This document shows positions 45,075 through 61,400 of a stretch of 64,000 nt of DNA, piece after piece. Origin of the DNA: Bacteroidales bacterium. GTDB taxonomy: Bacteria; Bacteroidota; Bacteroidia; Bacteroidales; UBA932. Position 1 is the first letter of the stretch, and the number at the start of each line of letters is the position of its first letter. The translations under genes were made by a program, and so were the position numbers. The stretch covers positions 62,001 to 126,000 of the forward strand of contig JAGCVJ010000010.1 of assembly GCA_017962375.1 (NCBI GenBank), read 5' to 3'. The notes below the pieces were generated by a model. That model saw only the letters and a list, made by a program, of their open reading frames with translations. It ran no database searches and was not told the origin of the DNA.

Positions 45075-45132
45075 TAGCGTGAATGAACAAAGAACGTAGC
45101 TGCAATTAGCAGATACACAGCATTAAAAGAAG

Positions 45133-45159
45133 AATGGTCTGGATTAATTCCAGGCCATT
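45133..45159. terminator. Terminator between ppdK and the accessory island
   Basis: An 11-base stem (AATGGTCTGGA with TCCAGGCCATT, one G-U) encloses a five-base loop and is followed by TTTTCTTTC on the plus strand, with an A-rich other side. It sits between the convergent ppdK and RhuM-like genes. Confidence 0.85.
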
Positions 45160-45171
45160 TTTCTTTCAAGT

Positions 45172-46062
45172 TCAGCCTTCGTTAATCTTAGCAAGTATCT
45201 CTGCTGAACTGATAAAACTCATCAGCGTAAACCCAAACCACTTCTTGCCCAGATCCTTTAAAGATGCCCCTATGTGATATACCTCATCATCTATCATAAG
45301 AAATCTGTCGTGACTCTTGTTGAAAGTCTCAACCTCAATGGCAGGATACTGACTGTTGTGCCTGGCAAGATCCAACTGTAGTTGCTGACTTATGCCATGA
45401 GTATATATCTTAGCCGATACTCCGGCTTTACGCTTGGCTAAAAGAACCAAGACAGATTCATCTACATAATTGTCGATCAGTGTTATAGACTTCTTAGCCT
45501 TCTTTATCAAATCACAAACAAAAGCATATGCATCAAATATCTGCCCGTCATAGAAGATCCCTTGAAGCGGCGGTAGAGATGTATTAATGAAGAAATCAAT
45601 TTTTTCTTCGGTTTTTGAAACCCTCTGTTCTAGGTGCTCAAGTCTATTGTTTACTGAGTATCCTTTCATCAAATAATCTCTCAATATACGAATAGCCCAT
45701 TGACGGAATAGTATACCTTGTTGAGTATTAACTCGATATCCAATTGAAATAATGACATCCAGATTGAATAATTCAACTTGACGGTTTACCAATCTCTTTC
45801 CCTCCTTTTGAACTAGTTCCAAAATGGAACTAGTTGCTTGCCTGTTCAATTCTTTTGTTTCAAAAATGTTTTTTAGGTGTTTGGTAATTGCTTGACGTTG
45901 TGTTCCAAAAAGCTCTGCCATCTGCGCTTGGGATAACCATACAGTTTCTTCCGCGATTCGAACTTCAAGCCGGATATCATTATTTGGCTGATATAAGACT
46001 ATTTCTCCTGAAAATTCTGTCTTTTCCCCAACAACGTTACTATTTACATTCTCTATTTCCAT
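45172..46062 (-). CDS. RhuM-family protein with C-terminal PLD-like segment
   Basis: The 296-residue protein has two parts. Residues about 18-165 match the RhuM family: IVLYQPNNDIRLEVRIAEETVW, LSQAQMAELFGTQRQAITKH and DVIISIGYRVNTQQGILFRQWA. Residues about 175-296 look like a single phospholipase-D-fold unit with SHDRFLMIDDEVYHIGASLKD, in which H-x-K of the canonical HKD motif is replaced by H-D-R. RhuM-like proteins are common in mobile and defence loci; their activity is not established. The PLD-like part could bind or cut nucleic acid, though the altered motif argues for caution. It stands at the island's left edge. Confidence 0.82.
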   Translation of the reverse strand: MEIENVNSNVVGEKTEFSGEIVLYQPNNDIRLEVRIAEETVWLSQAQMAELFGTQRQAITKHLKNIFETKELNRQATSSILELVQKEGKRLVNRQVELFNLDVIISIGYRVNTQQGILFRQWAIRILRDYLMKGYSVNNRLEHLEQRVSKTEEKIDFFINTSLPPLQGIFYDGQIFDAYAFVCDLIKKAKKSITLIDNYVDESVLVLLAKRKAGVSAKIYTHGISQQLQLDLARHNSQYPAIEVETFNKSHDRFLMIDDEVYHIGASLKDLGKKWFGFTLMSFISSAEILAKINEG

Positions 46063-46235
46063 CTCGTCTTAATAATATATTCAACCCACAAAGAAAGCCC
46101 AAACTCCATTCCGGCGGTTACCATTCGGTACATTTTACCCGCATCAATCCAAATCATTTACGATTCTGGAATCATTTAACACAATCCTGGATTATTCTCA
46201 GTGATTTTTTTCTGTGAATTGTGTCGATAATTTCT

Positions 46236-46243
46236 TAAATTTG
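46236..46243 (+). promoter_or_regulatory. -7 element in the gap before the motor operon
   Basis: TAAATTTG matches the consensus perfectly and predicts transcription from about 46249 into the structured RNA region and possibly on into the operon. A -33 candidate is weak. Confidence 0.5.
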
Positions 46244-46246
46244 AGA

Positions 46247-46475
46247 GCCGATACTGCAGAAATGCGGTCTCAGCGATAACATAAGAAAGCGTTTAGCTTT
46301 ATTCCTTACTGATGAATCTGGACAATTCACTGCAACGGGAAGAAAGTTATTCGCTCCATCTGGCTATATGTTGGCTCTGTCCAGTCTATAGCAGTGTGAG
46401 CGCATATACTTGTTCGTTGCGGGGCTGTCCAGAGCCTATCAGTAGAATAAGTTAAGTGGCTCACACTTTCTTTTT
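46247..46475 (+). ncRNA. Candidate structured RNA upstream of the motor operon
   Basis: The 461-base gap 46063-46523 has no open frame but carries a -7 element and about 225 bases rich in complementary segments. GGCTCTG (46373-46379) pairs with CAGAGCC (46430-46436). GTGTGAGC (46394-46401) pairs with GCTCACAC (46459-46466), which runs into TTTCTTTTT. CTGGACA (46318-46324) can pair with either copy of TGTCCAG (46378, 46426). The two main stems interleave, giving a pseudoknot or a switch. Size and terminator would also suit a 6S-type RNA; I cannot confirm a family. Left of the -7 element (46063-46235) I see nothing clear beyond the RhuM-like gene's upstream region. Confidence 0.5.
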
Positions 46476-46523
46476 ATTTATGGATTAATTTGTCATCGAG
46501 CAACTGACAAAATTCTATTTTTA

Positions 46524-47789
46524 GTGAAGACATCTTTAACATTTAGTTTTGGGGCATTATTAGGTGTGTTTGCCTTTATGGCCTATATTTTTTCATCCTG
46601 CTCTTCACCCATCAACAGCATTAATGACCCGCACTTCGACGAGAATGGTGTATATCTCGATAGTCTTGGTCCAACGTTCCATTCTGCGATGCCATCTTCC
46701 CTCGACTTCTTTGTGGAAGTGAGCGGGAGCATGAACGGCTTTTTCCGAGCGAATAGAGCGACTGCTTTCAAGACAGATGTTTGGGCAATTGTTTCGAATT
46801 TCGGTAATCCGGGCGTCTATGTGCCCTCAAACACAGGCGCTATTGCAGCTAAGTATAACGGCGAGCAGTTTAAGGTCAAGATGAATTCAGGTGGCTTTGT
46901 ATCGACCGTTGCAACCCAGGTGCCTGCTATGCTGGAAGCTATACTGTCCAATTTAGATTATGAGAATGGCGCTGTAGCTGTTTTGATTTCGGATATGAAG
47001 TATAGCCCTGTTGGCAATAAGGCAATGCCAGTTCTTCTTCAGCAGTATTCAACTGACATTAGGAATATTGTTGGCAAGTATCCTGGCTCGGCTTATAGTG
47101 TAGTTGGTGCTTATTCAGAGTATCTCGACGCAAAGGGCAATGTGGCTTGCGAAAAGTCTCCGTATTACTATGTCATTATCGGCAAAGATGTTTGCGTTGC
47201 CGAAATACGCAATTGCATTACCACGATTCTCTCTGACCGAGATAATTATCTAGACAATATCGAAACTGGCTTTGATTACAAGCGCCCTGCTTATAGCTTT
47301 GGTGTTCCGGATAATGTAATTCAACTTGATAATGAGCCTACTTTTTTCAATTACGACGTTTCATACTCTGATACTTGCAAGGTCGTACTGAACCTTGATT
47401 TGTCAGATTTCCGCTGGCACATAGCAAATGATGAAGATGTGCTAAGGGAATGCCTTAAGGTAAAGTCTGCATATGGTTCTGATATTGAGGTGGGTAAAAT
47501 CAATATAAATATAAATAACCATCATCAAAAAAAATTAGAAAGGCTCGCCGTCGCTTCTGTTGAGTTAAAACTTTGGAATATGCGAATGGATGCCGATGTC
47601 ATCGAGTGGACTCTGGATCATCCTGATTTTTACGTTACAGATGAATTCCTGAAGATTCAAAACGCCACTGCAGAGGCAGACCTTACAGGGTCTTTTTCCT
47701 TGTCCGATTTCATCAAGGGCGTTTTCCAGGCTGTCCAGAATCACTGGAACCAGGAGCCGAACCGAATCTTGATATCAAAAACCAATTAA
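46524..47789 (+). CDS. VWA-like lipoprotein, first gene of the motor/cytoskeletal operon
   Basis: The 421-residue protein starts at GTG 46524, the only start giving the export signal MKTSLTFSFGALLGVFAFMA followed by FSSC (Cys 26), a plausible lipidation site. From about residue 59 it reads as a von Willebrand A-type domain: LDFFVEVSGSMNGFF has the metal-site Ser-x-Ser but Glu where Asp is usual, and VAVLISDMKYSP is the later central strand. The C-terminal half (about 270-400) is beta-rich and unknown. A weak TATTTTTA lies at 46516-46523, directly before the GTG. I infer an envelope-anchored binding or sensing subunit of the operon's complex. The gene ends three bases before the next. Confidence 0.7.
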   Translation: MKTSLTFSFGALLGVFAFMAYIFSSCSSPINSINDPHFDENGVYLDSLGPTFHSAMPSSLDFFVEVSGSMNGFFRANRATAFKTDVWAIVSNFGNPGVYVPSNTGAIAAKYNGEQFKVKMNSGGFVSTVATQVPAMLEAILSNLDYENGAVAVLISDMKYSPVGNKAMPVLLQQYSTDIRNIVGKYPGSAYSVVGAYSEYLDAKGNVACEKSPYYYVIIGKDVCVAEIRNCITTILSDRDNYLDNIETGFDYKRPAYSFGVPDNVIQLDNEPTFFNYDVSYSDTCKVVLNLDLSDFRWHIANDEDVLRECLKVKSAYGSDIEVGKINININNHHQKKLERLAVASVELKLWNMRMDADVIEWTLDHPDFYVTDEFLKIQNATAEADLTGSFSLSDFIKGVFQAVQNHWNQEPNRILISKTN

Positions 47790-47792
47790 CAT

Positions 47793-48248
47793 ATGAAGAT
47801 TGTTGACATTTACGGATGGGGTCTTCCCAAGCAGGCGGATTTCCTCAATCACTTTAAAAACAATAATACGCTTTATAACCAAGCGCGTGTTCTATGGAGC
47901 AAACTTGACGCATGCACTGTTTGGTTTATTATCACTTTCATAGTCATAGCATTGTTATTTGCCATCATCTACTATGGGCCGTATAACAATAAGCCAGGCC
48001 GCCATTATAAAGTGAAACACTGGTTTCTCTGGATGATTATCTCTGCTGCTGTCACCTTTATTGTAACATTGGTGATTGGGCTGATATTGGTCAAGTCTCC
48101 TCTAGCTGCAAGAATCGGTATGATTCTAAGAATTAGCGGAATCAATATCCTTTACAGCATCGGAGTTTTTTTCATTGTGGCCCTTTTGGTCTGCAATGTT
48201 TCGTTCCTTAAGACAAATGCATATAGATTCCTTAAAATAGGCAAATAG
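47793..48248 (+). CDS. Small three-helix membrane protein of the motor operon
   Basis: This 151-residue protein has hydrophobic helices at about 42-62, 77-103 and 112-138, a soluble N-terminus (MKIVDIYGWGLPKQADFLNHF) and a short basic tail. I do not recognise a family. Its tight place between the VWA-like and tubulin-like genes (three and two bases) suggests it is a membrane subunit or adaptor of the same complex. Confidence 0.72.
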   Translation: MKIVDIYGWGLPKQADFLNHFKNNNTLYNQARVLWSKLDACTVWFIITFIVIALLFAIIYYGPYNNKPGRHYKVKHWFLWMIISAAVTFIVTLVIGLILVKSPLAARIGMILRISGINILYSIGVFFIVALLVCNVSFLKTNAYRFLKIGK

Positions 48249-48250
48249 AT

Positions 48251-49648
48251 ATGGCAAACAAAGTATTCGTTTTCTGCATTGGCGGAACTGGACTTCGAGT
48301 AATGAAAGCCATCACGATGCTTGCTGCATCTGGAGTAAAGGCTAATGGGTACACGATTGTCCCCATCATCATTGATCCTCACATTGACCTTGAAGAGAAG
48401 ACCAAGGTTGACAATCTTATCAATGACTATATTAGCATATATAAGTATGCGACGACCAGCGAAGGCCAACAGATGAATCCACTTGACGGATTCTTTAACA
48501 CGCAGTTTCTACGCTTATCTGAGATTGACGATGAGCAGAATAATACTAGTGCCAGTATGGCAGAGCGCCGCACCTTCGGTAATTATTTGAATGTCGGCAA
48601 CCTCAGCAATGATGACGTGAACAATTATTTCGTCCAGACATTGTTCTCAAATGAAAACCTCACCAACAGCCTTTCAGTTGGTTTCAAGGGTAATCCGAAT
48701 ATAGGAACAGTAGTCCTAAACGAAATGGTAAACGGGGCTGACTGGTACAACGCATTCACTCGTCACTGCGAGAATGGCGATCGTGTCTTCATTATCAGTT
48801 CCATCTTCGGCGGTACCGGTGCTTCTGGCTATCCGCTTATTGAGAAAAAGATTCGAGATGCTGAAGGTTTCCCTAACGTACAGCATGCTCTTATGGGTGC
48901 CGTAACGGTTCTTCCTTATTTTTCCCTGGAAGATCCAACAGTTTCCGGCAGTGACATCGATTCTTCCAGCTTCTTTACGAAGTCAAAATCCGCTCTTAGT
49001 TACTACGAGAATAACGTCAAATCAGACTATCTTTATTATGTCGGTGAGCAGACACTTCTCGCCAATTACAAGAACAATGAAAAAGAGCAGAAGGACCTGG
49101 CCCATTTTGTAGAGTTGGTAGCCGCTACTGCACTTTTCGACTTCCTCGCCAAACCAAAACCAGATGCACCTCAGGCACTTACTCGCGCCATTTATGATGA
49201 CAAGGTTGCCTTGGATCTCTCTTCTCTGGGCGCAGGATACAAAGGAATAGTCAAGAATGTGGCCGACATGATGTTGCTTGACCTTCTCGTAAAGATTCTC
49301 CCTGAGGAGTCACAGTTCCCGCTGAAGAAGGACCGAAATATGAACAAGGACTTTTACAGGGACCATGCTTTTGTTGCTCTAGACAATTTCACGAAAGGTT
49401 TCTATCAGTGGTACAAGGAATTGTCAGAGAATGCACGTGGGTTTACCCCTCTCAATCTTGTCGGACCTGGCAAGGAACTTACCGCTTGGGTGAAGGGCAA
49501 CACACTAAAAGGAAAGGATGAATCCTACTATCTCCTTGAAATGATTAAGGCAAGCAACAAGGGCAACGGGGAGAAACATGACAACCTCTTCCGTTACTTT
49601 ATGGAGTTTGCCTACAGCGCCATCAACGTGTACACCAAAAATCTGTAA
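48251..49648 (+). CDS. Tubulin/FtsZ-like GTPase
   Basis: The 465-residue protein has two motifs of the tubulin superfamily: FCIGGTGLRVMKA at about 9-20, resembling the first nucleotide loop, and IISSIFGGTGASGYPLIEKKI at about 181-201, matching the tubulin signature loop GGGTG[ST]G with GGTGASG. DP at 42-43 and a long middle of alternating helices are consistent. It resembles the Tubulin_2-type proteins found in conflict operons rather than FtsZ; the C-terminal activation domain is divergent. It probably binds GTP in the cytoplasm, and filament formation is possible but not shown. Confidence 0.72.
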   Translation: MANKVFVFCIGGTGLRVMKAITMLAASGVKANGYTIVPIIIDPHIDLEEKTKVDNLINDYISIYKYATTSEGQQMNPLDGFFNTQFLRLSEIDDEQNNTSASMAERRTFGNYLNVGNLSNDDVNNYFVQTLFSNENLTNSLSVGFKGNPNIGTVVLNEMVNGADWYNAFTRHCENGDRVFIISSIFGGTGASGYPLIEKKIRDAEGFPNVQHALMGAVTVLPYFSLEDPTVSGSDIDSSSFFTKSKSALSYYENNVKSDYLYYVGEQTLLANYKNNEKEQKDLAHFVELVAATALFDFLAKPKPDAPQALTRAIYDDKVALDLSSLGAGYKGIVKNVADMMLLDLLVKILPEESQFPLKKDRNMNKDFYRDHAFVALDNFTKGFYQWYKELSENARGFTPLNLVGPGKELTAWVKGNTLKGKDESYYLLEMIKASNKGNGEKHDNLFRYFMEFAYSAINVYTKNL

Positions 49649-49655
49649 TTATATT

Positions 49656-52600
49656 ATGAGTAGCATAGATATCAATATCATACAGAGAGGCATAACCAAC
49701 AACTTTGAGTGGTCAGCTGAACAAGGTCGCATCACCGCTGCAGATTTGGGTAAAATCGGCGAGCAGCGCACCGACAACTGCGGTGCTTTGAATGCACTGC
49801 CGACTCCTTTCGCTCGTTTCTTTGTGTTCAAGGAGGCTTTCCGTCGTGTACTGGAGCAGAAACTCGACCCCAAGAACAAGCCTGCAGGAAAAGCATACGA
49901 GCATCTGGTTTCCAATACGCTTGACGTATTTGAACTTCTTTATAATCTAAAATACCACGAGAATCGTTGGAAAAGCCAGGACCGCCGTATCGTCATCAAG
50001 GAGTGGAATTATGAGGAGCAGATGAAGGTTCTCAAAAAAGATGTCCCTATCCTAGGCAATGTCGTAGAGAGTTATTTCAATGAAGATCTTGGAGAGGTTT
50101 CCAAGAAACTGTTCTTCATTGTTCTGGAAGATAAAGGCAAAGAATGTCTTCTGGCAACAAGTTCTCCGATGACCGGTTTCATCACACCTCCTGATCTGGA
50201 CCTCAAGACAGTGACCAGGGCCGGAAGGAAAGAAGAAGATTTCATCGGTGCAATCTACCAATCACTTAACATTACGCCTCTCGCCAGAAAAGCAGGTGGC
50301 AAGTATTTCAAGGATATTCAGCTCTTCGAAAACAGAAGCGAGGATTTCAAGAACTACATGTACAACAAACTCTTCTCTGGCGGTGCTAAGATTGATTCCC
50401 GTTTCACGGAGTTGAGAAACTATATCCAGGCTTTCTCTGCTGATAGGCAGATTACAAATCGCTGGTCTGATGATAATCTGGAACCTGTTTTCTCCCTGGA
50501 CAATTCCCCGCTTGATGTGAATGGCATCCCTATTTATTGCAGCAAAGCGACCGATGTCATCAATTATCTTACCGATGCCATCATCCGTCTGCCTTATAAG
50601 ATTGATTCAGATAAGTTCATAACGCTCATCTTCACTCCAGACAGCGCTGATAGGGATTATGATTATCTCCTTCCTTTGACCAAAGTAGGTCTTGAGCATC
50701 TTAAGGCCGGCGATCTCAAGATAACAGGTACAAAGAAGTCATATGGTGATGTGGCCGTTGCATTAGAGTGCAATGGAAAGAAGCACGAGCGCTACTATAC
50801 GACCGATAAGAATCCGAGTGTCGGGAAAGGCACCGTTCTTGACTTGTCCTTGGCCAAAATCAATTTTGACATCGCACTCTTCCCGAACGTCCTCTCGTAT
50901 AAGGCAAAGGAGAATAATTTCTTTAAGATTCTTGTGGCCGCGACCGACCAGAACGAGAATAAGACTTTCTCTATTGCCAATCTTGACTTGGAGTTCTATG
51001 CTGCTGACAAGGATGGAAAGTATATCCATGTTGAAGAAGCAACAGATGATACGTTTGAGAATGGCGTAAAAGAGCCTTTTACCCGCTCCCAGCAGGACAG
51101 CGACAATGATTGCGGCACCAAGTATTACGAGGTGTTCAATACGCCTTTCGATGCCATTTGTGCCGAACTGTATCTGGAAGGAAAGACCTATCCGTTTGCC
51201 ATTATTCCCAAATGGGATAAGTCTGAGCCTTCTGAGAAAAAGTTCTCTTATGCCATTGACCTTGGTACGTCAAACACGTACATTTCACGGAGGGAGAGCG
51301 GCAAGATGACTGAGCCTCAGCAGTTGAAGATGGATCAGCAAATTGTCAACTATCTCCATGCAAAAGATGAATCTGTCCAGAAAGGCCTGACTTCCAGAAT
51401 CGAAGGAAAGATTCCAGAGGCGTTCAAGACTCTTGTAAAGACCGAGTTCGTTCCTGCGCTTATTGATGATAAGATATATCGGTTCCCGATTCGTACAGCT
51501 TTGTGCGTCACCGGTGAAGATACCCGGAAACCTATGCTATTCGACAATAGCAACATAGCTTTCTTCTATGAGAAATTTCGTGCTGCCGGCAACCAGACCG
51601 TCATCACCAATATCAAATGGGCAGAGGATGAGAAGAATCTTCGTGTATTCATCCGTGAGATCCTCCTTCTCATCAAGGCTGACATTCTTCAGGAGAATGG
51701 TGTCATTTCCGGCACGGAGGTCATTTGGTTCCGCCCGCTAAGCTTCAAAGAGAGCATCCGTAGGAGTTTTGAGAAGATTTGGAAAGATGAGGCTTCCAAT
51801 ATCTTGAATCTTGATTCCGCCGACCAGCAACTGAAGTGTTATACCGAATCCGAGGCACCTTACTACTACTTTGCAACCAAGGCTGCTTTCCAAAATGTTG
51901 AATCCGTAGCTGTGATGGACATAGGTGGTGGTTCGACCGATATTGTGTACTACGCAAAGGGAGATGCCAAGATTGCCAACTCCGTTCACTTCGGTTGCGA
52001 TGTGCTTTGGGAGAACGGTTATAATCAATTCGTAAATGCCCGTGACAATGGTATCTTTAAGCACTATAAGGATAAGATAACTTTCGAAACGCCTGAGCTA
52101 AAAAATCTGTATGCGGCGATGCTTAAGTCGAACCATACTTCGACCCGTGACATCATTAATCTTTGGATCAGCAATGACAAAGAGACCGAGATTTCCAAAA
52201 AACTGAGGACGGATCATATTTCGACCTTCGTCTATCATTACACTGCTCTCGTTTACTACATGGCGTCCATGTTCAAGGCAAACGAGCTGCCTTATCCGAG
52301 GACCATCATCTTCAGTGGTAACGGCAGTAAGTACATTGACAACTACATTACGGATACCTTAATGTTATTGAAGCAGATTACCGAACTGGTTGTATCCAAA
52401 GTATATGGCAAGGTTATCTCAGACATCGAACTGGTTCTTCCGAACGAACGCAAGGAAAGCACTTGCTACGGCGGTCTTTATCATCGCGCCGGTGCAGTCG
52501 AGCCAAAGCCGGTTGTGTATCTGGGAGATGGTGAGAATAAGGAGTATAAGGATGTCGAGGCCGTCAATAAGGCTTACACTTCTGGTATGAAAGACAAACT

Positions 52601-52856
52601 CGGTCGTGAGATCACCGCGATGAACAGAATTTACAAGGAAGTTCTGGATGTTCTCATCCAACAGTCCGTTATTGAGCAGGTTGATTCCGCCAAGATGAAG
52701 GAGGTAGTGGATTCTGTTGTCAAGGATGCGCTGGTTTCCAAGTTCCAGACTGAGATTCTTGACAAGTATATGCTCCAGGAGCCGTTCAACGATACACTGT
52801 TCTTCCTGCCGGTTGTAGAGGCAATCTTGAAACTGACAGGCATTTATAAGCGATAA
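49656..52856 (+). CDS. Large protein with C-terminal actin/Hsp70-type ATPase domain
   Basis: This is 1066 residues from ATG 49656; an earlier in-frame ATG (49578) lies inside the tubulin-like gene. Residues about 1-530 match nothing I recognise and look like several alpha/beta and beta-sandwich modules. From about 531 the ASKHA fold is clear: FSYAIDLGTSNTYISRR (phosphate-1), VAVMDIGGGSTDIVYYAKGD at about 752 (phosphate-2) and RTIIFSGNGSKYIDNY at about 882 (adenosine motif). The domain is longer than in MreB or ParM and closer in style to Hsp70-like conflict proteins. It would bind ATP in the cytoplasm, next to a tubulin-like partner. Confidence 0.8.
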   Translation: MSSIDINIIQRGITNNFEWSAEQGRITAADLGKIGEQRTDNCGALNALPTPFARFFVFKEAFRRVLEQKLDPKNKPAGKAYEHLVSNTLDVFELLYNLKYHENRWKSQDRRIVIKEWNYEEQMKVLKKDVPILGNVVESYFNEDLGEVSKKLFFIVLEDKGKECLLATSSPMTGFITPPDLDLKTVTRAGRKEEDFIGAIYQSLNITPLARKAGGKYFKDIQLFENRSEDFKNYMYNKLFSGGAKIDSRFTELRNYIQAFSADRQITNRWSDDNLEPVFSLDNSPLDVNGIPIYCSKATDVINYLTDAIIRLPYKIDSDKFITLIFTPDSADRDYDYLLPLTKVGLEHLKAGDLKITGTKKSYGDVAVALECNGKKHERYYTTDKNPSVGKGTVLDLSLAKINFDIALFPNVLSYKAKENNFFKILVAATDQNENKTFSIANLDLEFYAADKDGKYIHVEEATDDTFENGVKEPFTRSQQDSDNDCGTKYYEVFNTPFDAICAELYLEGKTYPFAIIPKWDKSEPSEKKFSYAIDLGTSNTYISRRESGKMTEPQQLKMDQQIVNYLHAKDESVQKGLTSRIEGKIPEAFKTLVKTEFVPALIDDKIYRFPIRTALCVTGEDTRKPMLFDNSNIAFFYEKFRAAGNQTVITNIKWAEDEKNLRVFIREILLLIKADILQENGVISGTEVIWFRPLSFKESIRRSFEKIWKDEASNILNLDSADQQLKCYTESEAPYYYFATKAAFQNVESVAVMDIGGGSTDIVYYAKGDAKIANSVHFGCDVLWENGYNQFVNARDNGIFKHYKDKITFETPELKNLYAAMLKSNHTSTRDIINLWISNDKETEISKKLRTDHISTFVYHYTALVYYMASMFKANELPYPRTIIFSGNGSKYIDNYITDTLMLLKQITELVVSKVYGKVISDIELVLPNERKESTCYGGLYHRAGAVEPKPVVYLGDGENKEYKDVEAVNKAYTSGMKDKLGREITAMNRIYKEVLDVLIQQSVIEQVDSAKMKEVVDSVVKDALVSKFQTEILDKYMLQEPFNDTLFFLPVVEAILKLTGIYKR

Positions 52857-52859
52857 ACT

Positions 52860-54518
52860 ATGAGTTTCTTCCAGTTTCTCGACTCGAATCCTTGGGTAAC
52901 TGTTGCTGCTTTTTTTGCAGTACAGCTCGGGTTCTTCATTCATACTTATCTGAAACTGAACGAATTGAGTCTTTTCTTTCCTTCAAAGAAATGGCAGACT
53001 AAGGAGAATGAAGACAACCTGACGCTGATTGCAGAGCCGGAGAGTTCTAAGAATGCCCAGGATTTGGTGAGCGAGATAAATGACTACATTTCCAAAACCA
53101 GCGGTGCCGTTGAATATGCGGTAATTAAGGATAAAACTGAACGTAAGATTGATTCTCTCTTTGAGTTCGCCACATCCAAGGTCTCCTTCCCGACTTACCT
53201 TGGTCTGATGGGAACCTTCTTTGGCGTATACATCGGCTTGAAGTGTTTCAACGCTGGTCTCGGAGAGGGAGATGGCGGTATCACGGACCAGATGGTCAAG
53301 GAACTGATTGGCGGAATCATCGTGTCGATGGTTACCTCCCTGATTGGTCTCCTTTTGATGACCATCAGCAACATCCACGCGAGCCATGTCCAGAAGAAGG
53401 TTGATGCCCAGAAGGATGAGTTCTTTGAGTTCATCCAGATGGAGGTTATTCCTACCCTGGGAACTAATATATCTTCTTCTCTGAACCGTCTGCGCAGTAC
53501 TATCGGCAAGTTCGAACCATCTTTCCGGGCTGTTATCGACGAATTCAAGGCTGCTTTCCGTGATTGTACGGATATGTTCAAGGGAACGTTTGCTGAGAAT
53601 GCAGAAGTCCTTACCAAGGCCGTGGCCGAGATGGGCAGCAATATGACGCTCATCAACGAGAACATCCAGAAGCAGGACCAGCTTTTGAAGACGCTGCAGC
53701 AGGATGAAATGGTCGTTACTCTGGACAAGTTCGTCACTGCTGCCAACAGTTTCGATTCCGTCACTACGTCCATCCAGAAACTGGAAGAGGCCAAGGAGCG
53801 CATCATCGCTTCCACCAACACCCTTGCCGAAAAGCAAGAGTCTTACAACCAGTCGCTTGAGATTCCTACCAGGCTGCTGCAGCAAATCAACTCTATTCTT
53901 GATCGTGTCACCACCTTTGAAAAGAGCATCAATGCCCTGGGCGTGAATATCGCTCAAACCCAGCTACTTGGTAACACGCAGATTAACGCCATTGAGGAGC
54001 AACTGAACGCCCTCAAGACAAAGCACAGTCTCGTTTACCGATATCAGGATACTCAGGTAGAGGAACTTGACAAGATTTACCAAGAGCAGACCAAGGCCGT
54101 AAATGACCTATCCGAAGCCTTCCGCCGTGCCGTTTCCCAGAACAGGGACGATATTGAAAAGGCGATGCAGGATTTCAAGACGGCTTACGATACAATTGTC
54201 CGCGATTGCAAGATTGGCGTTGAACAGAAACTTGAAGAGTTCATCAAGGCTCTTAACAAGACGCTTGATGTCGAGGATGCCAACCGGAAACTGTCCAACC
54301 TTGACCGTCTGCAGGCACTTGAAAGCGGCCTCGGTGAAATCAAAACAGCCATTGCGGACAAGTCTGCGATTTCTGACGTTTCCAGAGCCGTGCGCGAAGG
54401 TAATGCTAAGATTGATGAATTGGCCCACCGTCCTATCAAAGTCCAGTGTACCGTTAGCGGTTCTAAAGGCGAAGAAAAGCCAAGAAAGCGTGGCATCTGG
54501 CCTTTCGGGCGTAAGTAA
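52860..54518 (+). CDS. MotA/TolQ/ExbB-type channel with long coiled-coil tail (ZorA-like)
   Basis: The 552-residue protein has a transmembrane helix at about 11-30, a cytoplasmic loop, then two helices at about 111-131 (LGLMGTFFGVYIGLKCF) and 148-171 (GGIIVSMVTSLIGLLLMTIS), the conserved core of the proton-channel family. Residues about 180-510 are almost wholly helical and heptad-like, forming a long intracellular tail, and the end is basic (KPRKRGIWPFGRK). The channel-plus-tail layout is that of ZorA in Zorya. With the following MotB-like gene it should form an ion-driven rotary unit in the inner membrane. Confidence 0.88.
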   Translation: MSFFQFLDSNPWVTVAAFFAVQLGFFIHTYLKLNELSLFFPSKKWQTKENEDNLTLIAEPESSKNAQDLVSEINDYISKTSGAVEYAVIKDKTERKIDSLFEFATSKVSFPTYLGLMGTFFGVYIGLKCFNAGLGEGDGGITDQMVKELIGGIIVSMVTSLIGLLLMTISNIHASHVQKKVDAQKDEFFEFIQMEVIPTLGTNISSSLNRLRSTIGKFEPSFRAVIDEFKAAFRDCTDMFKGTFAENAEVLTKAVAEMGSNMTLINENIQKQDQLLKTLQQDEMVVTLDKFVTAANSFDSVTTSIQKLEEAKERIIASTNTLAEKQESYNQSLEIPTRLLQQINSILDRVTTFEKSINALGVNIAQTQLLGNTQINAIEEQLNALKTKHSLVYRYQDTQVEELDKIYQEQTKAVNDLSEAFRRAVSQNRDDIEKAMQDFKTAYDTIVRDCKIGVEQKLEEFIKALNKTLDVEDANRKLSNLDRLQALESGLGEIKTAIADKSAISDVSRAVREGNAKIDELAHRPIKVQCTVSGSKGEEKPRKRGIWPFGRK

Positions 54519-54532
54519 TCCTTATCAGTATA

Positions 54533-55237
54533 ATGCGTAAGAAAGGCGACAAAGACTCATTCTGGCCAAGTTATGTGGACATAGTCACTACCTTGTTTGC
54601 AATTATGGTGGTGTTATTTGCTGTATCTTATAGCCGATTCCGTGTGAAGGAAAGAGAATTGAGAAAAATCGTTGACAAATACGAAGAAATCAAGAAGATT
54701 TATCAGACAGTTGAGAATATCGATCCAACCTATTTTGAGTTCGATTCTACTTATGTAAAGCATATCTTCAAGATACAAGTTACCTACCAGAAAGGTGAGT
54801 TTGATCTGTATAAACTTATGGTTGATCGCGCGAATAAGATGGCTGCTGACTCTCTTCGAGAGCGTATTATTGCAGCTGGTCAGGAGATACAAAAGACTGT
54901 GCGAAACTTGCAGAATATGCACGATAAGAAGCAGGACATTAAGTATTTGGTAGTCATTGAGGGGCAGGCATCTGCCGATGGATATTACATCAATCCCTAC
55001 TTCAACAATGATGTCCTGAGTTACCAACGTGCTCTTGCACTTCATCAATTTTGGCGAAAAAATGGCATCGATTTTTCTTCAATGCTTAAGTGCGAACTAG
55101 TAATCTGCGGAAGCGGAGAGGGCGGAGTGCCGAGAGATACGACTCGAGAGGAATTCAACCAACGATTCCTAATACATATTGTTCCTGTTATCGGCAACAT
55201 CCGTATGGATAATTCACAAAAAGCCCATTCTTTTTAA
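54533..55237 (+). CDS. MotB/OmpA-type stator partner (ZorB-like)
   Basis: The 234-residue protein has a short cytoplasmic N-terminus, a single transmembrane helix at about 12-32 (WPSYVDIVTTLFAIMVVLFA) carrying Asp 16, the likely ion-binding residue as in MotB and ZorB, a linker helix (36-62), and a C-terminal OmpA-like domain (VIEGQASADGYY at 141, SYQRALALHQFWRKNGID, and EFNQRFLIHIV) for peptidoglycan. It lies 14 bases after the channel gene and completes a channel/stator pair. The OmpA peptidoglycan ligands are not fully canonical. Confidence 0.85.
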   Translation: MRKKGDKDSFWPSYVDIVTTLFAIMVVLFAVSYSRFRVKERELRKIVDKYEEIKKIYQTVENIDPTYFEFDSTYVKHIFKIQVTYQKGEFDLYKLMVDRANKMAADSLRERIIAAGQEIQKTVRNLQNMHDKKQDIKYLVVIEGQASADGYYINPYFNNDVLSYQRALALHQFWRKNGIDFSSMLKCELVICGSGEGGVPRDTTREEFNQRFLIHIVPVIGNIRMDNSQKAHSF

Positions 55238-55239
55238 TA

Positions 55240-56010
55240 ATGTTACGGTTATCTGTTATTGGTGTTATCTTAATATTCATCCTGCATGCAACAGTATGTT
55301 GCATTAGCTATCCGAATTCAGATGGTGATGTTAAAATTGAACTTCCTTCTCAAAGTGAAATAAATAGAACCATATATTATTCAGACTATACTTTGTCTTA
55401 TGATATAATGAGCAAAATCCCTGTATGGGTTTCATATGAATTAGTATCAGAGCATACAGATGGTCCATATAGTAGAAAACATTTGAAATTTATACCAGAT
55501 GAACACATCGGTTTAATCCAGGCGGATGATACTGATTATAGAGGTTCTGGTTGGTCTAGAGGTCATATGGCGCCGGCAGGAGATTTCAAGTGGACGGAGA
55601 AAGGAATGCAGGAAACATTCTATTATACAAATTGTTGTCCTCAAAACGAAACACTTAATAATGGCAGTTGGCATTCTTTAGAGAAAAGAGTTAGATATTG
55701 GGCAAATAAATATGGAAAGATATATGTAGCGACAGGGCCAATTATTGGGACAAATCGTTTTGGAACAATAGGGCCACATAAAATTATTGTTCCTGATGGC
55801 TTCTTTAAGGCTCTACTTGTTTGTGTTGATGGAAAGTATCATGCTATTGGATTCTATATGCAAAATATTCCTGATAGACAATCGATGAAAGATTGTTACA
55901 TGACCATAGACGAACTTGAAACATTATCGGGAATAGATTTCTTTCCTTCTTTGGAGGATACTGTAGAGAAGATGGTTGAGGTTGAGGTTAATACATGTAT
56001 CTGGTTCTGA
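55240..56010 (+). CDS. Exported DNA/RNA non-specific endonuclease (NUC, beta-beta-alpha metal)
   Basis: The 256-residue protein has a hydrophobic export signal (MLRLSVIGVILIFILHATVC, possibly lipidated at Cys 20/21) and a NUC domain from about 45. The active-site stretch is WSRGHMAPAGDFKW: catalytic His 109 is present, with Ser in place of the usual Asp of DRGH. Later YTNCCPQNETLNNGSWHSLE supplies the metal-binding Asn. It should act in the periplasm or on incoming DNA. Codons are much more A/T-rich than in the six genes before it, and it starts two bases after the stator gene, so it looks like a recently joined effector. A terminator follows. Confidence 0.87.
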   Translation: MLRLSVIGVILIFILHATVCCISYPNSDGDVKIELPSQSEINRTIYYSDYTLSYDIMSKIPVWVSYELVSEHTDGPYSRKHLKFIPDEHIGLIQADDTDYRGSGWSRGHMAPAGDFKWTEKGMQETFYYTNCCPQNETLNNGSWHSLEKRVRYWANKYGKIYVATGPIIGTNRFGTIGPHKIIVPDGFFKALLVCVDGKYHAIGFYMQNIPDRQSMKDCYMTIDELETLSGIDFFPSLEDTVEKMVEVEVNTCIWF

Positions 56011-56046
56011 CTTAGATAGCGTCTGAATCTTGTAATAGAAAGTCTG

Positions 56047-56083
56047 AGAAACCGGTTTCAAAATGCGACGGGTTTCTTTTTTT
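56047..56083 (+). terminator. Terminator of the motor operon
   Basis: AGAAACC (56047-56053) pairs with GGTTTCT (56071-56077) around a 17-base loop and is followed by a run of T. Confidence 0.7.
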
Positions 56084-56095
56084 AGCAGTCATTAT

Positions 56096-56126
56096 TTTGT
56101 TATCTCAATATGTTTTCATATATTTG
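56096..56126 (+). promoter_or_regulatory. Promoter of the RHH/PIN pair
   Basis: TTTG (56096-56099), 19 bases, TATATTTG (56119-56126): a perfect consensus promoter. It ends eight bases before the ATG at 56135, so that start would be nearly leaderless. Confidence 0.85.
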
Positions 56127-56134
56127 TAACATAA

Positions 56135-56470
56135 ATGTATAACAGAGAGTATAACGCAAGTAGAATGGATAGGACTGAAACAAACAGAAATGCTAAGATT
56201 CAGACCGCTTTCAGGTTTGAGCCCCTGTTGCTCGATCGGGTGAAGGAAGCGGCTAAACAAAATGGAGTTAGCGTTAACGAGTATGTGAGCAATGTACTAG
56301 TTGAGGCTACGAAGGAAATTATAACTGAAAAAGAAATGGAAGAAAGAAGAAGAGAAACGGAAGAATTCCTGGCGGCTGTTGCCGGGAAATGGGTGGACGA
56401 AGGGACCACTGAAGAGATTATGAAGAGGATTAGGGAGGATAGAACGCCATGGAAGATCAGAGAGTGGTAG
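56135..56470 (+). CDS. Ribbon-helix-helix antitoxin
   Basis: This is 111 residues from ATG 56135; ATG 56165 (MDRTETNRNAK) is an alternative giving 101. The RHH fold is seen in KIQTAFRFEPLLLDRVKEAAKQNGVSVNEYVSNVLVEAT. The C-terminal charged part (EEIMKRIREDRTPWKIREW) probably wraps the toxin. It overlaps the PIN toxin gene by 22 bases, standard for VapBC-like pairs. Confidence 0.88.
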   Translation: MYNREYNASRMDRTETNRNAKIQTAFRFEPLLLDRVKEAAKQNGVSVNEYVSNVLVEATKEIITEKEMEERRRETEEFLAAVAGKWVDEGTTEEIMKRIREDRTPWKIREW

Positions 56471-56865
56471 CTAAGTATCTTCTTGATACCGATATGGTTA
56501 TAGACCTTATAAGGTCATCTTCATCTGTAGTTGCCCAGAAGGTTAGGGAAGTCACGATGGCGATGTGCGCTATCGCTGACATTACCCTGTATGAGCTTTA
56601 TTGCGGTGCAGTTGCCAGCAAAGAATCTTCTGTAAACATTGCTATCGTTGATTTTATTAAGTCCAAGTTTACAGTACTAAACAGTTCTGAGGCCTATTTG
56701 GAGGCCGCGCGGCAGAAGAAAAGGCTTAAGGAACTGGGAATGGCAATTGAGGACAAGGATCTTCTGATTGGTTGCACTGCAAAAGTCAATGGCCTTGTGG
56801 CTGTTACGGGCAATGCAAAACATCTAGGCCGGATTGAGGGCCTAGATGTATGCAGTTGGAGGTGA
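56449..56865 (+). CDS. PIN-domain toxin (VapC-like)
   Basis: This 138-residue PIN-domain ribonuclease has the acidic centre spread over [24 protein letters not shown] and IEDKDLLIGCTAKVNGLVAVTGNAKHLGRIEGL. Four conserved acidic positions are kept. As a VapC toxin it would cleave tRNA or other RNA when not bound by the antitoxin. The pair stands at the right edge of the island, next to housekeeping phoH, and could stabilise the island. Confidence 0.9.
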   Translation: MEDQRVVAKYLLDTDMVIDLIRSSSSVVAQKVREVTMAMCAIADITLYELYCGAVASKESSVNIAIVDFIKSKFTVLNSSEAYLEAARQKKRLKELGMAIEDKDLLIGCTAKVNGLVAVTGNAKHLGRIEGLDVCSWR

Positions 56866-56900
56866 TATTGCAGGCAGTGTTAATTGCCTGTTGCTAAGTA

Positions 56901-58409
56901 TTATAGTTTCTTGCCGGCAAGTTCGCTCAGGCGGCTTCTTTCGCCCATTATCAGGTTTACGTGCTCAAAGAGTTTTTCTCCGTAGAGCTTGTCGCTGATA
57001 TGGGTAAGGCCGTTGGAGTACTTGTCAAGGTATGGCTGGTCAATCTGCTGAACGTCACCTGTAAAGACAATCTTGGTGCCTTCTCCGGCACGGGTGATGA
57101 TGGTCTTAACTTCGTGAGGGGTAAGGTTCTGAGCCTCATCGATGATGAAATAAGTCTTCTGGAGGCTTCTGCCCCTGATATAGGCCAGAGGGGCGATTTC
57201 CAGCTTCTTGGTTCTAAGCATCTCCTCAATCTTGATGTTCTCCTTGGCGGAAGGGCCGAAGTTCTTCTTGATGACGGCAATGTTGTCATACAGAGGCTGC
57301 ATGAACGGGGCCAGTTTCTCCTGCACGTCTCCAGGAAGGAATCCCATTTCTTCGTTCTGGAGAGTAATAACCGGCCTTGCCACCAGAATCTGCTCGTAGT
57401 GGTCTGCCTGGGCTAATGCTCCGGCCACGGCTATCAGAGTCTTGCCGGTTCCGGCGGTTCCTGTAAGTGACACAAGCTCAACGTCTCTGTTCATAACGGC
57501 ATCCATGGCGAACACTTGCTCCTCGTTTCTAGGAGAAACTCCGTACTGAGTCTGAGGGAGCACCCTTATGACCTTGCCGCTGCGGGCGTCGAAACGGGCC
57601 AGGATGATGCTGTCGCGGATAGGGTCGCGGTCGTTCCAGTTCATGTTCAGGTATTCATCCTCGCCATCGTTGGTGTCCACGTCGGTGTGCTTGGTAGGAA
57701 TCCTGAAGAGCTGGTTGAAAGCCGGCTTTACCTTTAGTTTCAGGTCTTTATAGTCTACGCCGATGCCGCTCATCAGGTTGTTGATGGCTTTTTCCGGCAC
57801 ATTGACAAGCTGGATGACGCGGTCATAGTCCTGTGTGAACTTCTCTTCCTTGATATGGTCGTTGAGGTAGTCCTGGGTGAACATTCCCAGAGCCTTGGCC
57901 TTGAGCCTGAGGTTCACGTCCTTGGTAACCAGGCAAACGGTGCGGTCCGGATACTGGTTCTTGTACCAGATGGCGGTTGCGAGTATCCTGTGGTCCGGCA
58001 CGTCGTTGGAGAAGCAGCCTGCAAGATCAGGCGGGAAAGGCCTGTTCAGAGAAACCTTTATTGTTCCAAGTCCCTGGCCAAGAGGGTAACCTTTCTCAGG
58101 ATCATAGAGCCTGAGTTCGGAGATCTCGTCAGCCTTCCTGACAAATTCCCTTGCATTGTAGTTGATTGTGCCGTCTCCTTTCTTGAATTTGTCCAGCTCC
58201 TCTATAACAGCCAGAGGAATAACCAGATCGTTCTCCTGGAACTTGAATATGCATCTCCAGTCATGGAGGAGCACATTTGTATCCAGCACAAAAATCTTAG
58301 GCTTGCGGGTTCTGACCTTAATCACCTGTTCCAGACTGACCAGCTTCTTGGACTTTGTCTTAGAGCTCTTTGAAGCAGTCTTTCTTCTATCCGTCTTTGT
58401 CTCTTTCAT
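56901..58409 (-). CDS. PIN-PhoH fusion protein (PhoH2-type ATPase)
   Basis: This is 502 residues from ATG 58409; the longer frame to 58463 would enter purL. After a basic N-terminus comes a PIN domain (about 38-185: KIFVLDTNVLLHDWRCIF, IPLAVIEELDKFKKG) followed by a PhoH ATPase (about 290-502: LTGTAGTGKTLIAVAGAL Walker A, FIIDEAQNLTP Walker B, FTGDVQQID). Such PhoH2 proteins have been described as RNA-unwinding and cleaving enzymes. It is separated from purL by 29 bases on the same strand. Confidence 0.93.
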   Translation of the reverse strand: MKETKTDRRKTASKSSKTKSKKLVSLEQVIKVRTRKPKIFVLDTNVLLHDWRCIFKFQENDLVIPLAVIEELDKFKKGDGTINYNAREFVRKADEISELRLYDPEKGYPLGQGLGTIKVSLNRPFPPDLAGCFSNDVPDHRILATAIWYKNQYPDRTVCLVTKDVNLRLKAKALGMFTQDYLNDHIKEEKFTQDYDRVIQLVNVPEKAINNLMSGIGVDYKDLKLKVKPAFNQLFRIPTKHTDVDTNDGEDEYLNMNWNDRDPIRDSIILARFDARSGKVIRVLPQTQYGVSPRNEEQVFAMDAVMNRDVELVSLTGTAGTGKTLIAVAGALAQADHYEQILVARPVITLQNEEMGFLPGDVQEKLAPFMQPLYDNIAVIKKNFGPSAKENIKIEEMLRTKKLEIAPLAYIRGRSLQKTYFIIDEAQNLTPHEVKTIITRAGEGTKIVFTGDVQQIDQPYLDKYSNGLTHISDKLYGEKLFEHVNLIMGERSRLSELAGKKL

Positions 58410-58438
58410 ATTGTATGTTTTTGAATATTTCTCAGCGA

Positions 58439-61400
58439 TTATTTTCTGTTTTCCAGGCACCATTTTACTCCGGCGGTGAACATCTCAATCCAAGGAGTTA
58501 CAGTGTCCTTATCTTTTCTTGAAGTAGGGTAGTATGCCCAGTTCCAAGGCCTTATGCACCTTTCCGGATGAGGCATCATAGCCAGGTGCCTTCCGTCAGG
58601 AGAGCAAACGCCGGCTATGCCGAACGGAGAGCCGTTAGGGTTTGCCGGATACTCATTGTATGAATATCTGAGGGCCACTTCCATATCTTGGATCTTGCCG
58701 CTTGGCTTGAGGTTGCCGGCAGGGAAATTGAACCTTCCTTCCCCATGGGCTACCCAGATGCCCAACTTGCTTCCCTGCAGGTCTTTGAGAAGTATGGAGT
58801 TGCTGCGGGGAACCTCCACGCCCACGAATCCGCTCTCGAACTTGTGAGACAGGTTGTGGAGCATCTTCGGCGACTTGCTCCTGTCCTCAGGAGTTATCAG
58901 CCCGAGTTCCGCCATCAGCTGACAGCCGTTGCAGATGCCAAGAGAGAGGGTGTCTTTCCTGGCGTAGAAGTCGTTGAGAGCCTTGTTGGCCTTCTCGTTA
59001 TATAGGAAGGCTCCGGCCCAGCCCTTGGCGCTTCCCAGAGTGTCAGCGTTGGAGAAACCTCCCACAAACACAATCATCTGCACGTCTTTGAGGGTTTCCC
59101 TTCCGCTGGTCAGGTCCGTCATGTGCACGTCCTTAACCCTAAAGCCCGCCATATACAGGCACCAGGCCATCTCGCGGTCTCCGTTGCTGCCTTTTTCGCG
59201 GATGATTGCGGCAACGGGAGCCTTCTTCCTGTCGGCTTCAGTTATGGCTGCAGGGGCTTTTCCGCCGAATCCCTTCGGGAACTTGAACTCCAGAGGCTGC
59301 TTCTTGAAGTTGGCGGCTCTCTGGCGGGCGCTCCTGGCGTTTGTCTGGCGGAGTTCCATCTGATACGAGGTAGAATACCAGACATCTCTTGCCTTGTCTA
59401 TATCTATCTTTATGGTATTCAGTATATTGATTCGTCTTTTAGGAGAGATGCGCCCTATGGCCATCATCTGGACTCCTTCAGGATGCTTTTCATCTGCGAA
59501 GGATGCCAGAGCCTTGTCCACGGCCCTGAGCTTGCTGTCTGCAACCTGGAGCAGAACGCCAGGCTTTTCGCTGAAGAAGAACTCGGTCATTGGAAGGCTG
59601 ATTCCCTTGATGTCTATTCCGCCGTTGCGGTTTGCAAAGCACATTTCAAGAAGGGATGTTATCAATCCGCCGGATCCTATATCGTGGCCGGCAAGTATGA
59701 GTTTCTCTTTCACAAGACGCTGCACGGCATTGAAGCACAGGCCGAAATACCCGGCGTCATTCACATCCGGAGCCTTGTCGCCGATCTGGCCGAGAACCTG
59801 TGCGAACGCGCTTCCGCCAAGTTCAGGAGAGCTCTGGCTGAAAGGAATGAACACGATGGAACTCTTTTCTACAGGTTTCAGGACAGGGGAAACGGTGTTG
59901 TTCACATCTTCAACAGGCGCAGCCGCTGAAATGATAACCGTACCCGGAGCCAGGACTTTCTCGCCGTCCGGATAGGCCTGAGTCATGCTCATTGAGTCTT
60001 TGCCCGTAGGAACATTGATCTCCAGCTCAACGGCAAAGTCGCTGACCGCCTTCACGGCTTTGTAGAGCCTTGCGTCCTCGCCCGGATTGCGGCTAGGCCA
60101 CATCCAGTTGGCCGACAGGGAAACGCCTTTCAGTCCGCCGGAAAGCGGAGCCCAAACAATATTTGTAAGAGCCTCAGCCATGGCCAGGCGGCTGCCTGCG
60201 GCGGAGTCTATCAGTCCGGCAACCGGGGCGTGCCCCAGAGACGTTGCGATTCCTTCCTTGTTGTCATATCCTATGGCGGTGACTGCCAGATTGTTGAGCG
60301 GGAGCTGAATCTCGCCGCAGCACTGCTGCAGGGCTATAAGTCCGGTAACCGAGCGGTCCACCTTGTCCGTAAGCCAGTCTTTGCAGGCTACGCTTTCCAG
60401 ACGGAGCACCTGGTTCAGATAATCGGTGAATTTCTCAGTGCTGAACTTGAGCGGATTGAACTTGTACTCGGCGGTTTCTCCCTTCATATAAGTCTTAGGG
60501 GCGCTGCCGAACATGTCTTTCATTTCCAGGTCAATGGCGCTTTCTCCCTTCTTTTCGTCGCGGAGCACAAACCTATGGTCTTCAGTAACTTGGCCGATTT
60601 CATAGAACGGAGCTCTTTCTCTCTCGGCGATTGTCTTGAGCAGTGCCACGTCTTTTTCCTTGAGCGCCAGGCCCATTCTCTCCTGGCTCTCGTTGCCTAT
60701 GATCTCTTTCAGTGAAAGGGTAGGGTCGCCGATAGGGAGCTTGCTTATATCCACCTTGCCGCCGGTTTCTTCCACCAGCTCGGAAAGGCAGTTCAGATGG
60801 CCGCCGGCCCCGTGGTCGTGTACGGAGATGATAGGGTTCTTGTCCATTTCGCTGAGTGCACGGATGGCGTTGTAGTCTCTTTTCTGCATCTCGGCGTTTG
60901 CTCTCTGGATGGCGTTGAGTTCAATCTCGTTGCCGTACTGGCCTGTGTTGACTGAACTTACGGCTCCGCCGCCCATTCCGATGCGGTAGTTGTCACCGCC
61001 AAGCAGCACCAGGCGGTCGCCTTTCTCGGGAACTTCCTTGGCGGCATCTGCCTTCTTTGCATATCCCACTCCGCCGGCCAGCATTATGACTTTGTCGTAG
61101 CCGAACTTAGGGTTGTCTTTCTCCACGCCTTTCTGCTTTGCGGCGTGCTCAAAGGTGAGCAGCGAGCCGCAGATTATCGTCTGGCCGAACTTGTTGCCAA
61201 AGTCGCTGGCTCCGTTGGATGCCTTTGTCAGTATCTCTTCTGGGCTCTGGTACAGCCATTTGCGTGGCTTGTCCTTCTGCCATGGCCTCTCGATAGGCTT
61301 AGCATTTGAGGCATCAAACCTCGGATAGCTGGTCATATAGACAGCGGTTCCGGCAATCGGGAAACTGCCCTTGCCGCCAGCCATTCTGTCTCTGATCTCT

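Follow-up and report, generated by a model that had tools for sequence, protein, structure and literature searches.

The 64,000-nucleotide stretch of DNA that we analyzed, hereafter the window, is from a gut bacterium of the order Bacteroidales and carries on its plus strand, at positions 46524-56010, an operon of seven open reading frames (ORFs) with successive gaps of 3, 2, 4, 3, 14 and 2 bases. The first gene (46524..47789) has a GTG start and encodes a putative von Willebrand factor A (vWA)-like lipoprotein of 421 residues with a hydrophobic N-terminus, a lipobox cysteine (Cys26) and an E-x-S-x-S-M motif. It is followed by genes for a small membrane protein of 151 residues with approximately three transmembrane helices as judged from hydropathy (47793..48248), a predicted GTPase of the FtsZ-like/Tubulin_2 group of 465 residues with the loops GGTG (residues 11-14) and GGTGA[SA]G (residues 187-193) (48251..49648), and an actin-like protein of 1067 residues (49653..52856), which has an N-terminal part of approximately 520 residues and actin/Hsp70-type ATPase motifs in its C-terminal half; its start was set at the ATG at 49653, matching that of a relative (L147). 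The next two genes encode a MotA/TolQ/ZorA-like channel subunit of 552 residues with a helical tail of approximately 380 residues (52860..54518) and a MotB/ZorB-like partner of 234 residues with an OmpA-type domain and one transmembrane helix containing Asp16 (54533..55237). The last gene (55240..56010) encodes a DNA/RNA non-specific endonuclease (NUC) of 256 residues with an SRGH motif, which is predicted to be exported or membrane-anchored and is the probable effector of the operon. Hydropathy analysis identified no helix in the tubulin-like or actin-like proteins, an N-terminal hydrophobic segment in both the vWA-like protein and the nuclease, and two helices in the MotA-like protein, in which a third, at approximately residues 109-130, was apparent when the sequence was read by eye. 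Three features of this operon and its relatives are new: the actin-fold partner is constant, a motor resembling that of Zorya occurs as an optional module, and varied extracytoplasmic hydrolases occupy the last position.

The nuclease was the only window protein of the seven to pass a curated Pfam cut-off (PF01223, E=7.2e-50). The remaining domain calls were sub-threshold in the window proteins, and their support therefore comes from relatives, motifs and gene order. A scan of a genome collection with a profile of the tubulin-like protein confirmed at least 539 relatives, and our locus counts refer to the best 80 loci, nearly all of which are labelled Bacteroidota; three are labelled Roseburia, Lachnospiraceae and Oscillibacter and are perhaps mis-binned. 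Hidden Markov models (HMMs) of the operon proteins matched an actin-like protein in all 80 loci, the membrane protein and the tubulin-like protein in 78 each, the vWA-like protein in 77, the MotA-like protein in 62, the MotB-like protein in 58, and the NUC nuclease in 22. The exact order vwa-tm3-tub-act-motA-motB was present in 52 of the 80 loci, and 16 had the first four genes only. Median intergenic gaps were 3-10 bases, with the exception of that between act and motA. Since this order is kept in relatives whose tubulin-like proteins are only about one third identical, the arrangement is an operon beyond chance. In addition, the distance matrices of the six proteins in the 52 single-copy loci correlated with r of 0.83-0.97, values that none of 999 permutations reached. 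These data showed that the four-gene core (vWA-like, membrane, tubulin and actin-fold proteins) is inherited as a unit and that a ZorAB-like motor accompanies it in most of the Bacteroidota loci. Eighteen loci had no MotA-like gene; in eight of these the sequence past the core is shorter than 2.5 kb and in ten it is longer, which indicated that the motor is an optional module. It could be argued that the genes are loosely linked and do not form one machine, as a number of loci have no motor or no hydrolase. The gene order, short gaps and distance correlations speak against such loose linkage, which we regard as the least credible explanation of the locus.

A first-pass annotation of the window had described seven closely spaced genes on one strand, with both tubulin and actin folds, an exported nuclease and a ZorA/ZorB-like pair lacking ZorC, ZorD and ZorE. 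The operon was borne out, as were the absences within it (by PADLOC), and the folds and the nuclease are supported by profiles, relatives and motifs; the co-occurrence of the genes, which it had proposed as a check, was found in the 80 loci. Its statement that the operon matched no named system did not hold, as we assign the tubulin-like protein to the FtsZ-like/Tubulin_2 group, which has vWA and OmpA neighbors, and as GTPase-centered conflict systems containing tubulin, HSP70 and vWA proteins had been predicted in 2020.

The assignment of the tubulin-like protein to that group was based on several profiles. The window protein matched PF00091 (E=1.2e-4) and, weakly, Tubulin_2 (E=0.44) in Pfam, whereas among 13 family members PF00091 matched all and Tubulin_2 matched nine at E<=0.01 (best 3.2e-8). 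The two GTP loops, GGTG and GGTGA-x-G, were invariant across 67 tubulin-like sequences. The AlphaFold model of the protein had a mean predicted local distance difference test (pLDDT) score of 88.5 and a predicted template modeling (pTM) score of 0.91, and its N-terminal half is predicted to have a beta-alpha organization, with a mainly helical region beyond residue 275. Searching the PDB with the family profile gave a single Tubulin/FtsZ entry, with a weak match (0.04). We therefore consider the protein a predicted member of the FtsZ-like/Tubulin_2 group, by which the core of the operon would be partly known. The actin-like protein of the window matched the Pfam families Ppx-GppA (E=1.2e-5) and MreB (0.031), and its family profile matched MreB and FtsA in the PDB at 5e-4 to 0.03. 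The vWA assignment is the weakest of the domain calls and the fold is putative. The first-pass annotation called the protein a VWA-like lipoprotein. It has a lipobox cysteine, and Glu65, in the E-x-S-x-S-M motif, and Asp157 are invariant in 66 sequences, with a glutamate where the motif of the metal-ion-dependent adhesion site (MIDAS) type has its first aspartate. The vWA part of the name found no significant profile match; the window protein had no match in Pfam and none in a profile search of the PDB at E<=1, and VWA_2 was found in one of ten relatives at a non-significant E=0.052.

The channel subunit matched PF01618 below its cut-off (2e-3) and the PADLOC profile ZorA2 at 1.4e-6; its family profile matched only coiled-coil proteins and the like in the PDB. 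Its partner matched OmpA in Pfam (4.4e-4) and ZorB1 in PADLOC (3.6e-8), the in-membrane Asp16 was invariant in six of six sequences, and the best PDB matches were 8qyd_F (6.6e-8) and 8vvn_B (1.8e-6). We take 8qyd to be the ZorAB structure and 8qyd_F to be ZorB. The other five operon proteins matched nothing in PADLOC at E<=1, so that the operon, to which the search was limited, has no ZorC, ZorD or ZorE, and membership of Zorya was rejected for this reason. A flagellar or type IX secretion motor was rejected as well, with GldL/PorL matching at E=0.55 (10.1 bits, cut-off 68.3) and MotD at 1.2e-4 (21.9 bits, cut-off 283).

The position after motB was found to be exchangeable. The genes there are often of lipoprotein type, as read by eye, and belong to differing hydrolase families, namely NUC (PF01223), SNase (PF00565), trypsin-like (PF13365), retropepsin-like (PF13975) and, in one locus, EEP (PF03372). 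Among the 54 loci that have motA, motB and at least 1 kb of downstream sequence, 19 had NUC, nine a trypsin-like protease, three a retropepsin, two a retropepsin and an SNase, one an SNase, one an SNase and a trypsin-like protease, and 19 none. Three of these last 19 nevertheless have a hydrolase, a NUC (L049) and an SNase (L115), both close by in the other orientation, and an EEP protein (L114), giving a total of 38 of the 54 loci. Forty-seven of the hydrolase HMM matches start, on the strand of the operon, inside it or no more than 2.5 kb beyond its end, and the other five lie 0.1-0.73 kb from the core. Expressed per ORF, there were 47 matches among the 221 ORFs located in the operon or immediately following it versus five among 550 elsewhere (Fisher p 4.5e-22). 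As the HMMs were built from operon-adjacent proteins, this result ties the subfamilies to the operon and is no evidence of a general enrichment of hydrolases. The expected motifs were largely intact: for NUC, 21 of 23 matches had the Gly-His pair (both misses are pieces of a split gene in L098) and 22 of 24, window included, had the N..PQ....N motif; the others were DTGA of the retropepsins in 10 of 11 (the miss being a 93-residue fragment in L091), DGDT of SNase in six of six, and the His motif and GSSG of the trypsin-like proteins in all 12 listed. NUC was present in 17 of the 22 window-like loci (L043-L064). On the tubulin tree, with 37 labelled rows, effector class changed at least 10 times, compared to 13-20 times (mean 17.6) in 200 shuffles, and these fewer changes indicated that the classes are inherited and yet turn over.

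Several other genes follow the core. A gene family (cluster 1) is located just after motB in 12 loci; the sole member scanned (L064:16942-18453) is a DUF4357 protein, a domain also found in a whole-operon copy from IMG/VR (L155), and the window has no gene of this family. The terminal protein of one locus (L098:17424-18170) has a retropepsin-like C-terminus and an N-terminal stretch that is SNase-like by eye. In some loci (L025:2981-3388 and L071:18875-21248) the core is followed by proteins that have zinc-ribbon-like CxxC pairs close to the N-terminus, also noted by eye.

The presence of exported nucleases and proteases beside a motor would also be expected of a scavenging apparatus, in which motor-driven uptake is fed by surface enzymes digesting DNA or protein. 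Yet no transporter or outer-membrane receptor family scored above cut-off among the seven window proteins, to which this test was confined, and uptake has no need of cytoplasmic tubulin and actin folds. We consider scavenging very unlikely.

Comparison to the three nearest relatives (L043, L044 and L045, respectively) showed that the operon proteins differ in their divergence. Identities were 95, 94 and 92% for the tubulin-like, 91, 90 and 85% for the actin-like, 86, 85 and 88% for the MotA-like and 88, 88 and 80% for the MotB-like protein, 81, 83 and 83% for the membrane protein, 83, 74 and 78% for the vWA-like protein, and 53% in all three for the nuclease. The non-synonymous divergence (dN) from these relatives was 0.03-0.05 for the tubulin-like protein and 0.36-0.41 for the nuclease; the proportion of synonymous differences (pS) is near saturation and the comparison is no test for selection. 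From these sequences, the nuclease may either change fast initially or have been exchanged by gene replacement. At the DNA level the operon of L043 is 78% identical to that of the window, with no flank in common in the sequence compared; L044 shares the ppdK flank.

The operon is accessory. Its tubulin-like gene was identified in two of 37 genomes of the genus (its own, G000, and 36 others, completeness 73-96%), the second being G325, the genome of L044. At the level of the order 18 of 295 sampled genomes matched (E<=1e-3), and in a sample of the phylum 13 of 395 did (E<=1e-10). In the window the operon is bracketed by ppdK (42357-45074) and phoH (56901-58463), and in two relatives (L146 and L150) the ppdK-phoH interval is only approximately 80 and 100 bases. 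The G320 genome (L144) is 96% identical to the window over the ppdK stretch and has no operon there. Since 35 of the 37 genus genomes gave no match and two relatives have ppdK right next to phoH, a housekeeping role in division or motility was disfavored.

The interval between ppdK and phoH (window 45073-56901; L144-L152) has the appearance of a hotspot for accessory genes in the genus. Outside the operon it contains a minus-strand gene (45172..46062), presumably of RhuM type, relatives of which come after ppdK, with no operon present, in L145, L148 and L152, where the contig end cuts the view, and a plus-strand pair (56135..56865) that we take to be a VapBC-type toxin-antitoxin pair and that occurs without the operon in L144 and L149. 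In four relatives (L144, L145, L149 and L151) the interval holds a gene of 571-578 residues.

The core was also found outside the main set of loci. A search of 72,556 plasmid records gave six matches, all below 60% identity, from Picosynechococcus (three), Synechococcus, Gloeothece and Prevotella (one each, the last a replicon of 1.77 Mb). One Picosynechococcus plasmid has, in the same order, a vWA-like gene (1e-16), a 170-residue membrane-type gene unmatched by the HMM of the small membrane protein, a tubulin-like gene (5e-48) and an actin-like gene (1e-38), with no match to the motor. The Prevotella replicon has all four core genes and no MotA-like match within the stretch fetched, and in the Gloeothece record the annotation of the relative is that of a protein with a tubulin-like domain; a small gene precedes it and a 3.3-kb gene follows. 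A phage origin was among the readings rejected: none of 50,697 phage records matched, and relatives were present on four IMG/VR contigs. In one cyanobacterial plasmid (L154:6997-15839) lipoprotein- or coiled-coil-type genes follow the four-gene core in the place of the motor. One IMG/VR contig (L158:755-15322) encodes a tubulin-like protein (6e-38; Tubulin_2 6.3e-6) and an actin-like protein of 1504 residues (2e-15), preceded by a lipoprotein-type gene and a 154-residue gene that do not match our HMMs; it has no MotA-like match, and the core-like set adjoins a resolvase and a ParB/methylase gene. Two others (L155 and L156:4304-17343) are near-alike copies of the whole operon, both loci starting with a gene that by eye is DUF1848-like. 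Downstream of a distant tubulin/actin-like pair, at L033:10487-12202, is a protein that by eye is ParA-like, with KGGVGRT close to its start.

The published proposal for operons of the FtsZ-like 1 (FtsZl1) group, which encode vWA and OmpA proteins, a GTPase and kinases, is membrane remodeling (Makarova and Koonin 2010, PMC2875224, in the part of its text available to us). Applied here, the nucleoside triphosphatases (NTPases) and motor would give the envelope its shape or mend it, and the trimming of surface or extracellular polymers would fall to the hydrolases. In its favor, the proposal is a published one with vWA and OmpA neighbors, parts of our operon are predicted to face the membrane and peptidoglycan, and the core is present in a cyanobacterial plasmid too. 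Against such a maintenance role are the absence of a match in most genomes of the genus (many of them incomplete), the relatives with an uninterrupted ppdK-phoH junction, and the sharing of one position by unrelated nucleases and proteases. We consider remodeling rather unlikely.

We favor, with the odds about even, the reading that the operon encodes an accessory trans-envelope conflict system, most likely directed against phages. The anti-phage function is our best guess, and would rest on the accessory spread, the exchange of effectors, the company at the chromosomal site and the ZorAB-like motor. The reading of the operon as a conflict system is also favored by the co-occurrence and correlated divergence of its genes, the unrelated folds and mostly intact motifs of the terminal hydrolases, the low identity of the nuclease to those of the three nearest relatives, and the best PDB match of the MotB-like family. 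A conflict system had also been suggested by the first-pass annotation, and the accessory behavior of the operon (two of 37 genomes, and the closed interval in two relatives) agrees with this; the relay from envelope to nuclease that it envisaged stays conjectural. In the model for Zorya, ZorB senses peptidoglycan, leading to ion flow, rotation of the tail and recruitment of a nuclease (PMC11890865, as far as its accessible text describes). By analogy, our best reading is that a motor of the Zorya type would be linked to a core of cytoskeletal NTPases and would have its effector outside the cytoplasm. Disturbance of the wall would cause the MotB-like subunit to engage peptidoglycan and the channel to open, and the long MotA-like tail would then rotate; to this movement the tubulin- and actin-like proteins would couple their own assembly at the membrane, driven by NTP. 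The signal might pass via the small membrane protein and the vWA-like lipoprotein to the anchored nuclease, which would be released or activated outside the cytoplasm; in relatives a protease, or a nuclease and a protease, would take its place. Acting there, the effector could destroy incoming DNA or kill the infected cell.

The same anatomy would suit defense against other bacteria, plasmids or conjugation, in which puncture by a contact-dependent weapon or by a mating channel would be sensed by the motor, and whatever enters the periplasm would be attacked by the anchored enzyme, whether nuclease or protease. The effectors have predicted export signals or anchors and toxin-antitoxin-type genes are located at the same chromosomal site, both consistent with this alternative, and no data here separate it from the anti-phage reading. 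We consider it improbable.

Several observations weigh against an anti-phage system of the kind favored here. No match was found among 50,697 phage records. The motor is non-essential to the wider family, as shown by the ten of 80 loci whose core lacks it despite at least 2.5 kb of downstream sequence, and 16 of the 54 loci have no recognized hydrolase. Effector classes partly track the tubulin tree, and in comparison to L063 (tubulin 66%) the nuclease, at 50% identity, is not the most diverged protein, with the membrane protein at 45% and the MotA-like protein at 47%. The likeness of the motor pair to ZorA and ZorB is weak, though repeated across profiles: the best PADLOC match of the MotA-like protein was JetC1 (2.8e-7), on the coiled-coil tail, ahead of ZorA2, and the NCBIfam ZorB1 equivalog gave the MotB-like protein 20.1 bits, where its cut-off is 400, and was outscored by flagellar MotD. 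In G325 the operon follows ppdK and the contig ends before any phoH. Lastly, the flanks of the 22 loci L043-L064 were scanned. At most three ORFs upstream and two downstream of each locus, all of at least 130 residues, gave 90 ORFs, of which the scan covered 73, in 21 loci; it omitted 14 motB-adjacent genes, ppdK in L044 and a single ORF in each of L053 and L057. The scan revealed mixed defense-type and housekeeping genes, a result that is without a control set.

Considering a broader role for the family, we speculate, as a possibility we hold with some doubt, that the relatives form a widespread class of envelope immunity, in which the tubulin and actin NTPases would together act, in the cytoplasm, as the switch of a rotary motor of ZorAB type with an exchangeable extracytoplasmic output. 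Such a class would be a relative of Zorya turned inside out, with an ancient vWA/FtsZ-like core as its foundation. If this speculation is correct, a defense system would unite both cytoskeletal folds with an ion-driven motor, and motor-based immunity would extend to effectors outside the cytoplasm.

No description of the full gene combination was found in the literature searched, which mostly excluded subscription papers, and we compared the operon with the described systems closest to it, several of which were available as partial texts. Zorya shares with it a MotA-like subunit with a long helical tail and a MotB/OmpA partner with an in-membrane aspartate; our operon differs in adding the tubulin and actin folds and in its nuclease being predicted to be extracytoplasmic. 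The vWA force transducers with TolQ-like motors reported in 2025 resemble it in combining a vWA protein, putative in our operon, with a 5:2-type motor, with function unknown, whereas there the vWA protein itself bears the in-pore helix, and the text available has no occurrence of tubulin or FtsZ (PMC12204202). Tubulin is likewise not mentioned in the accessible text of PMC8195603. The predicted GTPase-centric conflict systems with tubulin, HSP70 and vWA proteins (GAP1-N2; Kaur et al. 2020, PMC7159879) share these three components, of which the vWA protein is putative here, and the predicted role in conflict. Those systems have TRAFAC GTPases and FNIII proteins and their tubulin theme is in firmicutes and actinobacteria, and MotA, TolQ and stator have no occurrence in the portion of the text compared; in our operon, no P-loop GTPase family was identified among the seven proteins at E<=1.

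The closest likeness is to the FtsZ-like 1 operons, a group equated with Pfam Tubulin_2 (PMC9871819, from the text accessible), with which our operon shares the tubulin group, including the GTP loops and the helical C-terminal part, and a vWA protein, putative here, and an OmpA-type protein in one operon (PMC2875224). The P-loop GTPase and kinase partners of those operons are absent here, MotA, MotB, Hsp70 and trypsin have no occurrence in the main text as available, and an exchangeable nuclease or protease is not in the text compared; the unlabelled families A1-A2 and B1-B9, which are in a figure and supplement outside that comparison, may include the actin-like gene. Based on its sequence, we place the operon in the FtsZ-like/Tubulin_2 group as a predicted motor-bearing Bacteroidota variant. 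In the literature covered here, as far as it was accessible, no tested function is reported for the proteins of this group, and the actin-fold partner, optional motor and exchangeable hydrolases make their function directly testable.

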